Shown piece after piece: positions 34,773 to 37,641 of a stretch of DNA of 37,641 nt; within the stretch, counting starts at the first letter, position 1, and each line of letters opens with the position of its first letter. The DNA is from Terriglobales bacterium (lineage in GTDB: Bacteria; Acidobacteriota; Terriglobia; Terriglobales; Acidobacteriaceae), in NCBI GenBank assembly GCA_025927855.1, contig JAICKN010000007.1, forward strand, positions 1-37,641, written 5' to 3'. The notes below the pieces were generated by a model. The model did no database searches and was not told where the DNA came from. It saw only the letters and a list, made by a program, of their open reading frames with translations. Both the position numbers and the translations under genes were made by a program.

Positions 34773-37244
34773 CTAATTCCGCAACGGCTTCCCTGTTTTC
34801 AACGTGTGTTGAATACGCTCTTGCGTCTTGCGCTCTCCGCAGAGTGATTTGAATGCTTCGCGTTCCAAGTCCAGCATGTATTGCTCACTGATCGCGCTGC
34901 CGGGAGTAATATTTCCGCCGCAAAGCACCTCCGCGATTTTTCCCGCCAGCTTCATTTCATACTCTGTAATATAGCCGCCCTCGTGCATGAGATATGCGCC
35001 CAGCTTAAGAGTGGCGAGGATATTTTCGCCGGGCGCGGGAATATCGTTGCATTCCGCAGGCGGCTCATAACCGGTCCGCAGCAGAGACAGAGCGCAAGCT
35101 TTGGCATCGCTCAGAACGCGTTCGCGGTTCATGGTGATTTCATCGCTGTCGCTCACAAAGCCGAGCGAGCGCGCATGCACCGCCGAAGTTGAAACTTTTG
35201 CCATGGCAATTGTTTCAAATGCGCGCTTCATTGCATCCAGAAGTTCCACGGAATTTATCAATACGGCATTGCTTTGGCCAGCCCGGGTTGTTCCATGGCT
35301 CCCGCTCGCGCTAGCAATGGCACGCAGCAGCATCTCCTTGCACCCGCCGCCGGCCGGGAGAAGCCCCACTCCGGCTTCCACCAAACCTGTATAGAGTTCA
35401 GCATGAGGCTGGCGCACCGCAGCATGCAGTGACATCTCGCATCCGCCGCCCAGCGTCAGGCCGAATGGCGCAATCACCACGGGCTTGGGAGAAAACTTGA
35501 TGGCCTGGGTCATTGCCTGGAACTGCCGGACCATCAGGTCTATCTCATCCCACTCCTCTCCCTGTGCTGAAAGCAGCAGCATGACCAGGTTCGCGCCCGC
35601 CGAAAAATTCGCGGCATCGTTACCAATCACAAACGCGTCAAAGCTGCTCCCAATGCCATTTCCATTCCCTTGCGGAACCAACGTTTGAGCAAGCAGCGAA
35701 ACGATATCGCCCCCAAGAAGATTCATCTTGGAGTGGAACTCGATGCAGCCGACGCCGTCGCCCATATCCACCAGAGATGCGCTGGCATTACTTGCGACTA
35801 CTCCATTTCTTCTTTTGAGCACCGTTACTGTCAGTGTGCCCGGAGGAAGGTGCTCGGGCTTATAGCTTGCGCTTGCGAAGTCGAAGTACGCACGTCCTGA
35901 GGTCGCGTTTGGATCATCTCCGTACCAGGATTTTTGTCCGGATGCCAGGACCTTTTGTACGTTTTCAGATTGCCGCTGTTCTGGGGAGAAGCGCGCGACG
36001 GTGTTTTCAACTCCAGCGGTATCCCACAATTCAAATGGGCCGAGCTCCCAATTAAATCCCAGCCGCATGGCACGGTCCATTTCGACGATGGAGTCTGCCG
36101 CTTCAGGAACAAGGGCAACCGAATAAATCCACAGATCGGAAAGCATGCGCCATAGAAACTCGCTTTCTTTCGGCCTCTTCAGATGAGCACTTTCGCCGCG
36201 CGAGGCATTTGGGAAAAGGACCGTCCTTACTCGCTCCCGTAGATTCTCAATATTTTTTGCCAATTCGAGCACGGAAAATTTCGGTTTATTACTCGGATGG
36301 TATTCGAGGGTCTTCCAGTCAAGTGCCAGTATTTCATCTTCCCCCGAGCCAGTTCGTACCTTTTTATAAAAACCGCCGCCCGTTTTGTCTCCCAGCCATC
36401 GGCGTTGCAGCATCTCTTTGTAAAAGTCGGGCAGTGGATCGCACGTCGCCGGTCCAGCCGGTTGCTCTGCTGAAAATGTATTCCTTGCCACGTGGCCCAA
36501 AACATCGAGTCCAACCAGATCAAGGGTACGGAAAGTGGCCGAGCGCGGCCAGCCGATGATCGGGCCCGTCAACGCGTCCACTTCTTCAATGCTCAAGTCC
36601 ATTTGCTGCATCAGCCGCATGATGTTGAGCAGGGAAAAAACACCAATTCGATTGGCAATGAAGTTGGGGGTATCTTTGGCGAACACTACGCCCTTGCCCA
36701 GGCGCACATCGCAAAACCACGCTACCGCGTCTACTAAATTGCCGTCGGTATCCGGTGCGGGAATAATCTCCACCAGACGCATATAGCGCGGCGGATTAAA
36801 AAAATGCGTGCCGAACCATGAGCGTCGAAATTCTTCGGAAAATCCCTCGGCAATCTTGCTTACCGGAAGTCCGCTGGTGTTTGTGGTAATGATGGTTCCC
36901 TGCTTACGGACTGCCTCTACACGCGTCAACAGCGCGCGCTTAATTGAGAGGTCCTCCACAACCGCTTCGACGATCCAATCAACCTGGGCAAGGCTGGATA
37001 AATCATCGTCGAAATTTCCGACGGTTACCAATTGGGCGAAAGAAGGATCGAAAAGAGCGGCGGGCTTGGACTTAATCACCGCTTCCAACCGGGCGGCTGC
37101 GACATTTGTAGGAGGCACGTCGAGCAAGAGGCAAGGCACACCGGCATTACCAAAGTGCGCGGCGATGCGCGCGCCCATGGTTCCAGCGCCGAGCACAGCG
37201 GCTTTATGAATTCGCTTCACGGAATATGGCCTGCCCGGATGCAA
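34773..37244 (-). CDS. 3-hydroxyacyl-CoA dehydrogenase / enoyl-CoA hydratase fusion
   Basis: N-terminal AAVLGAGTMGARIAAHFGNAG and HFFNPPRYMRLVEIIP; C-terminal crotonase 'APFGLTLGGGCEMSLHAAVRQPHAELYTGLVEAGVGLLPAGGGCKEM'. Confidence 0.92.
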   Translation of the reverse strand: MHPGRPYSVKRIHKAAVLGAGTMGARIAAHFGNAGVPCLLLDVPPTNVAAARLEAVIKSKPAALFDPSFAQLVTVGNFDDDLSSLAQVDWIVEAVVEDLSIKRALLTRVEAVRKQGTIITTNTSGLPVSKIAEGFSEEFRRSWFGTHFFNPPRYMRLVEIIPAPDTDGNLVDAVAWFCDVRLGKGVVFAKDTPNFIANRIGVFSLLNIMRLMQQMDLSIEEVDALTGPIIGWPRSATFRTLDLVGLDVLGHVARNTFSAEQPAGPATCDPLPDFYKEMLQRRWLGDKTGGGFYKKVRTGSGEDEILALDWKTLEYHPSNKPKFSVLELAKNIENLRERVRTVLFPNASRGESAHLKRPKESEFLWRMLSDLWIYSVALVPEAADSIVEMDRAMRLGFNWELGPFELWDTAGVENTVARFSPEQRQSENVQKVLASGQKSWYGDDPNATSGRAYFDFASASYKPEHLPPGTLTVTVLKRRNGVVASNASASLVDMGDGVGCIEFHSKMNLLGGDIVSLLAQTLVPQGNGNGIGSSFDAFVIGNDAANFSAGANLVMLLLSAQGEEWDEIDLMVRQFQAMTQAIKFSPKPVVIAPFGLTLGGGCEMSLHAAVRQPHAELYTGLVEAGVGLLPAGGGCKEMLLRAIASASGSHGTTRAGQSNAVLINSVELLDAMKRAFETIAMAKVSTSAVHARSLGFVSDSDEITMNRERVLSDAKACALSLLRTGYEPPAECNDIPAPGENILATLKLGAYLMHEGGYITEYEMKLAGKIAEVLCGGNITPGSAISEQYMLDLEREAFKSLCGERKTQERIQHTLKTGKPLRN

Positions 37245-37405
37245 GAACTTACGAATCTTCCAGTTACGCAGGCAGAATATCGTGAGCCGCAGGGATTGTC
37301 ATTCCAGATAGCTCCACGAAGTGATAGAAAATCTGGTCCTCGCATCCAACCTGTGCGGCAGAATTTGTATCTTTGTCTAGGAAAGTAGTAATATGTTGAG
37401 GCCTC

Positions 37406-37468
37406 ATGATTCGCAATTCCTACTGTCGCGCTTGTTGTTGCCCCTGTTGTAGCACCATTCTCTTCTAG
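37406..37468 (+). CDS. Candidate poly-cysteine leader peptide (20 aa)
   Basis: ATG ATT CGC AAT TCC TAC TGT CGC GCT TGT TGT TGC CCC TGT TGT AGC ACC ATT CTC TTC TAG = MIRNSYCRACCCPCCSTILF*; GAGG at 37398-37401; 83 nt upstream of the sat start. Confidence 0.7.
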   Translation: MIRNSYCRACCCPCCSTILF

Positions 37469-37551
37469 CTCTGCCGGGCGATTTCCTGCCCACTCTGTAC
37501 CAAAGTTCAAAATGCAGTTCAGAATCTAAACCAACGTGGAGGGTTACTGCT

Positions 37552-37641
37552 TTGACTGTTTCATCGGGCCATTTGATTGCGCCGCACGGCGGCGAACTGA
37601 TTGATTTAATGGTGCAGCCGGAACGCGCCAACGAACTGAAG
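37552..37641 (+). CDS. sat: Sulfate adenylyltransferase, N-terminal part (runs off window)
   Basis: TTG start with GGAGGG at 37538-37543; LTVSSGHLIAPHGGELIDLMVQPERANELK matches the ATP-sulfurylase N-terminus 'L(I)xPHGGxLxxLxV'. Confidence 0.75.
   Translation, partial: MTVSSGHLIAPHGGELIDLMVQPERANELK

Follow-up and report, generated by a model that had tools for sequence, protein, structure and literature searches.

A cysteine-rich mini-ORF upstream of sat-cysC in a Terriglobales bacterium as a probable cysteine-sensing leader, with counterparts before other sulfur genes in Acidobacteriota

The window, which here means the whole 37,641-nt stretch of Terriglobales DNA that was analyzed, ends within a sat-cysC gene that is preceded by a short ORF rich in Cys codons. 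We propose, with a probability of about 0.8, that this ORF encodes a cysteine-sensing leader peptide (attenuator) of a sat-cysC/tauE/cysQ-like sulfate-assimilation operon. The proposal draws on conserved ORFs in the same genus and in two further genera, and on Cys-run leaders found before other sulfur genes. The leader is very probably a cysteine sensor of the kind described so far mainly in mycobacteria.

The leader ORF (MIRNSYCRACCCPCCSTILF, followed by the stop) occupies positions 37406-37468 of the forward strand, from an ATG at 37406 to a TAG at 37466-37468, and its homologues are found at loci L006, L010 and L016. It has 20 codons, six of them for Cys, and 83 nt lie between its stop and the TTG start of sat at 37552; this layout, first described in a sequence-only reading of the DNA, was confirmed in the sequence and in the ORF list. 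The Cys codons (TGT 37424-37426, TGT 37433-37435, TGT 37436-37438, TGC 37439-37441, TGT 37445-37447 and TGT 37448-37450) make up a proposed stall region at 37424..37450 on the forward strand, and five codons lie between the last of them and the stop. The TGT:TGC ratio of Cys codons is 5:1 in the leader versus 31:80 across 22 long ORFs. The leader peptide had no NCBIfam match, and Rfam gave no match in the window. Like leaders of the mycobacterial polycysteine type, the ORF is short, has adjacent Cys codons and precedes a cysteine/sulfur gene.

The sat-cysC frame, encoding a bifunctional ATP sulfurylase/APS kinase, covers 37552..37641 on the forward strand and continues on contig C266 (L003). 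Positions 37501-37641 of the window are identical to positions 1-141 of L003, an exact 141-nt overlap between the ends of contigs C86 and C266 of the same assembly, and the operon of the window therefore continues on C266. The protein encoded on this contig, a bifunctional sulfate adenylyltransferase/APS kinase of 579 aa, matches NF004040 (947 bits, cutoff 669) and bears out the earlier assignment of the downstream frame as sat. The operon order is the sat-cysC fusion (NF004040), a TauE/SafE permease (PF01925) and an inositol-phosphatase-family protein that is closest to CysQ, yet scores below the CysQ cutoff. The closest named relatives of the window sat are from Candidatus Sulfotelmatobacter and from Terriglobia and Acidobacteriaceae MAGs, which makes an origin in Terriglobales (Acidobacteriota) very probable. 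A long divergent ORF in the ORF list (34773-37244) lies upstream of the leader; judging its sequence by eye, we take it to resemble a 3-hydroxyacyl-CoA dehydrogenase.

A candidate -10 box, TAATAT (37389..37394, forward strand; GTAGTANTATG is kept in L006), sits 11 nt before the leader ATG. Transcription would be expected to start at about 37400-37402, making the window uORF nearly leaderless; a GAGG is also present 4-5 nt before the ATG. The TAATAT box was missed by a strict sigma-70 scan. At L016, TACTAT lies 5 nt ahead of the leader GTG, and across 21 leaders -10-like hexamers were found before 43% of the poly-Cys uORFs versus 7% in the control.

The only same-genus genome compared (G041, locus L006) carries MNNLLYCRCRCCSCCCLCCSTIQL, followed by a stop, at the equivalent place. 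In the pairwise alignment the two leaders differ by an in-frame 12-nt length change within the Cys block, with all six window Cys codons kept. Substitutions fall at non-Cys codons, the CCSTI tail is common to both, and the promoter element GAAGTAGTANTATGT is conserved. Unlike the leader with its in-frame indel, the spacer after the stop carries indels of 1-2 nt. The pair has zero synonymous Cys changes and hence provides no evidence of the synonymous bias that had been predicted; its changes are confined to other codons. Poly-Cys ORFs occupy the interval upstream of sat in two more genera as well, ending in CPSSCCSCCCRCQ at L010/L035 and reading MLTFHDYCCCCCR at L016, each followed by a stop. 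The stops of the homologous leaders lie 75-87 nt before sat.

The Cys-coding frame is thus conserved in four species of three genera, with a patchy distribution. Leader length ranges from 13 to 24 aa, and Cys spacing varies freely without a fixed CxxC pattern. Both features, together with the constant position before sat, argue against a functional metal- or thiol-binding micropeptide that is not a sensor. Such a peptide could account for the Cys-rich composition and for the CCSTI terminus conserved in the genus, but in the comparable leaders that precede other genes the Cys run is all that recurs, and we give this explanation little weight.

Another possibility is a TGT-repeat DNA or RNA motif, or a Val or Leu frame, with Cys coding incidental: (TGT)n encodes Val or Leu in the other frames, and L016 is a pure TGT repeat. 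However, the Cys frame is the only one that, at each of the four loci, opens with a start codon just past the promoter and closes shortly behind the run. The Val frame has no ATG, GTG or TTG start at any of them; the Leu frame has no leader-type start at L006 or L016, and its upstream starts in the window overlap the promoter. Cys codons also lie outside the repeat, TGT and TGC are mixed, and such leaders recur before cysteine/sulfur genes. An incidental Cys frame is therefore scarcely probable.

The frequency of such ORFs was assessed with a criterion chosen in knowledge of the four loci, and hence not blind: an ORF of at most 40 codons with at least five Cys in seven codons. It was passed upstream of 5 of 89 sat loci, in which one record is counted twice as L010 and L035, corresponding to 4 of 88 species. 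None of 17,800 dinucleotide shuffles passed, and when the corresponding 250 nt of the window were shuffled 20,000 times, a single shuffle did. Control tiles passed in 3 of 2144 cases, all of them the same kind of out-of-frame peptide downstream of sat. A chance Cys-rich ORF would fit the absence of the leader from most sat loci of the order, but given these shuffles and the occurrence in four species at the same distance from sat, this explanation is barely credible.

The poly-Cys leader is missing from the remaining sat loci of the order, about 84 in number. The expectation that related genomes would retain a Cys-rich ORF upstream of sat held for the four species, while most related sat loci lack it, which by the criterion set in the sequence-only reading speaks in part against the proposal. 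In a tree of 51 sat sequences, three changes are needed to explain the trait, and well-supported branches force two of them. Occurrence at 4 of 88 loci, with at least 2-3 gains or losses on the tree, means that the leader is dispensable or often replaced, and its history among sat loci is, as read from these sequences, one of patchy gain or loss. Where the poly-Cys ORF is missing, most Terriglobales sat loci have a different conserved leader in common, some 150 nt ahead of sat, with a TACTCTG promoter, a CCTCTCCCTT block, ATCTGCAA and CTGGGAAGCAATCCAG, and then the Shine-Dalgarno sequence (L030, L179, L189, L194, L196, L206, L216 and similar). These non-Cys leaders gave no Rfam match and no consensus fold; they are possibly a different regulator in the same interval. 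Genome- and family-wide searches with Cys-codon patterns returned mostly out-of-frame or antisense matches in coding genes. One example is L129, antisense to a Gln-rich protein. In these searches, in which the context of part of the matches was examined, nothing beyond the four sat leaders stood out as a convincing leader. A match in G474, out of frame near dnaK/dnaJ, was also rejected.

The sequence-only reading had also proposed a switch in which two GCCC tetramers compete for one GGGC. The tetramers are present at the positions given (GCCC at 37440-37443 and 37488-37491, GGGC at 37476-37479), and GGGC-GATTTCCT-GCCC (37476..37491, forward strand) may form a weak hairpin. The switch itself found no support: the window leader folds no better than shuffles (MFE z +0.82), no intrinsic terminator was found between the leader ORF and sat, as a classical attenuator would have, and the pairing register is shifted in L006, where a stronger hairpin, GGCGAA-CCA-TTCGCC, occupies the equivalent place. 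No U run was found between the window leader and sat. Of the original proposal of a cysteine attenuator, the Cys-sensing leader is backed by conserved ORFs and recurrence, but the fold is not. Cysteine sensing by the window leader is, as a prediction, well supported.

Downstream of the leader, a G-poor spacer runs from the uORF stop to the sat Shine-Dalgarno sequence (37469..37537, forward strand; C 31%, G 19%). Post-stop spacers average C 32% and G 16% over 21 leaders; C-rich, G-poor spacers are compatible with Rho, not proof of it. The Shine-Dalgarno sequence itself, GGAGG (37538..37542, forward strand), is conserved across sat loci. At L005, L007, L009, L012, L029 and others, the sat Shine-Dalgarno sequence lies inside a small inverted repeat, GAACCtgggaGGTTC, which recurs with variants at many loci.

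We suggest that transcription starts at or a few nucleotides before the ATG, at the position implied by the -10-like box, and that a ribosome translates the leader ORF. When Cys-tRNA(Cys) is short, the ribosome would dwell on the UGU run near the 3' end of the ORF, and its occupancy would keep sat expressed; when cysteine is plentiful, it would finish and depart, and sat expression would presumably fall. Since the stop closely follows the Cys run in the window leader and in the rhodanese class described below, stalled and terminating ribosomes cover nearly the same RNA and differ in dwell time. Occupancy would then block something adjoining the ORF, rather than set a trp-like choice between distant helices. 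The candidates are an RBS-occluding fold and Rho, and for the window we regard the two readouts as having similar odds.

In the translational version, to which we give not quite even odds, ribosome stalling prevents an mRNA fold in which the sat ribosome-binding site would be buried. The closest precedent is that of the mycobacterial poly-Cys leaderless ORFs (PMC9031893 and PMC13236596), and the sat Shine-Dalgarno sequence lies within a weak local hairpin at all four loci. However, ribosome-masked folding of the window gave near-equal Shine-Dalgarno accessibility with the modelled ribosome at the Cys codons and at the stop (0.28 vs 0.29), and by duplex energies the pairing of the Shine-Dalgarno sequence with an anti-Shine-Dalgarno in the spacer was no better than in shuffles (mean z +0.2). 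In the Rho-dependent version, put forward tentatively and at clearly less than even odds, a ribosome on the Cys codons shields the C-rich, G-poor stretch, and its departure leads to termination before sat. The lack of an intrinsic terminator in the window, the spacer composition and the position of Cys runs 0-6 codons from the stop are in line with this version, and the same arguments led to the suggestion of Rho for the mycobacterial cys leaders (PMC1262725). Against it, C-richness is weak evidence, the rut site and termination point are putative, and the window leader has five further codons between its last Cys and the stop.

Similar leaders were found before a different sulfur gene elsewhere in the class. 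A class-wide pattern search identified MRDHSEAVLPRTATVQSILACCCCR, followed by a stop, upstream of a two-domain rhodanese (thiosulfate sulfurtransferase) in G515. In the family of G515, another Terriglobia family than that of the window, 17 of 24 rhodanese genes have a leader upstream of their start that ends in a Cys run (CCC, CCCR or CCCC before the stop; L254-L279), with the stop 52-84 nt before the gene. Among all rhodanese loci examined, a Cys-run leader was present at 18 of 31, versus 11 of 6200 shuffles. The Cys codons of these leaders are TGT:TGC 45:20, versus 2:62 in the rhodanese genes. Elsewhere in the phylum, 23 rhodanese genes of other families were examined, and none was preceded by a Cys-run leader. 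Rhodanese is rare in the window's own order (8 of 150 genomes), where one of the seven loci that passed the start finder (L280) has a leader ending in CCCC. Cys-rich short frames (CCCCST, AACCST and CCGCG) were also seen upstream of rhodanese in this order (L284, L281 and L285).

A second type of sat, monofunctional and sharing about 45% identity with the window sat, is also present in the family with the rhodanese leaders. Nine of these genes carry leaders containing CCC (MCCC), with a run that is all TGT (L299-L309; for example, L299 1309-1448 and L300 1289-1425, oriented coordinates). Behind the leader comes a GC-rich hairpin (GCCCGCTGA..TCAGCGGGC and TTTTTGTTTTT; terminator z -6.3). Its 5' arm (CGCTGACGG) is complementary to the part of the uORF directly behind the Cys run (CCGTCAGCG; antiterminator z -2.3), and antiterminator and terminator therefore exclude each other. 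In the alignment, 89% of antiterminator cells are paired, with one compensated pair (slid controls 27-55%), and 94% of terminator cells, with two compensated pairs (slid controls 30-54%); with only nine related rows, the covariation is modest. For the leader peptides, pS exceeded pN in 33 of 36 non-independent pairs. Rfam gave no match for these leaders. We read the nine as putative classical cysteine transcription attenuators. A design, and no sequence, is all that the three leader classes share, and common descent does not follow from it.

Known Cys-codon leaders provide a basis for comparison. A poly-Cys ORF precedes mycobacterial cysA2 (PMC4633059), translation attenuation of mycobacterial cysteine genes is described in PMC13236596, and a functional study of mycobacterial poly-Cys leaderless ORFs (Canestrari 2020) is cited in PMC9031893. 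Like these ORFs, the window leader has contiguous Cys codons before a sulfur-assimilation gene, lies near the predicted 5' end and has no obvious terminator; the rhodanese behind the L254-L279 leaders is of the same general kind as mycobacterial cysA2 (thiosulfate sulfurtransferase). The window leader differs in belonging to another phylum and in preceding sat-cysC, and the peptides share only the Cys run; its cysteine response and RBS-masking structure are putative readings of the DNA. A study restricted to Actinobacteria, unlike the window, reported Cys-codon runs near the stop, including an acnes leader and cbs in B. longum (PMC1262725). These leaders resemble the window design in that position, in the absence of a terminator and in a pyrimidine-rich spacer suggested for Rho.

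The uORFC-8-2 motif upstream of cysS in Rhodobacterales, for which attenuation was proposed (PMC8632094), is a uORF with tandem Cys codons; the tandem Cys at codons 14-15 of the window leader matches it, a feature that does not define membership. Its intrinsic terminator design is shared by the monofunctional sat leaders (L299-L309), whereas the window leader differs in its gene (sat, not cysS), its phylum, its lack of a U run and terminator and the absence of an Rfam match. As in classical trp/ilv-type attenuators, the window leader peptide is rich in the end-product amino acid, but the mutually exclusive antiterminator and terminator of that type occur in L299-L309 and not in the window leader. 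For the attenuators predicted in Acidobacteria, a 2010 survey noted associated functions in almost no case (PMC2965389), and a literature search that lacked most subscription journals found no description of Cys-run leaders in Acidobacteriota.

Taken together, the leaders point, on balance, to a cysteine-sensing network in Acidobacteriota. In this network Cys-run, nearly leaderless, UGU-biased mini-ORFs would independently gate two kinds of sat and a thiosulfate sulfurtransferase, through at least two readouts (with a terminator, or terminator-less as in the window), and the leader would have been repeatedly gained or swapped at the same sat promoter. Such a network would offer a concrete account of how cysteine supply is regulated in a phylum dominant in soil, and would mean that leaders of poly-Cys design also exist outside Actinobacteria. 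The matched natural set of loci with a terminator, without a terminator and without a leader would be suited to the question of how mycobacterial cys leaders are read out.
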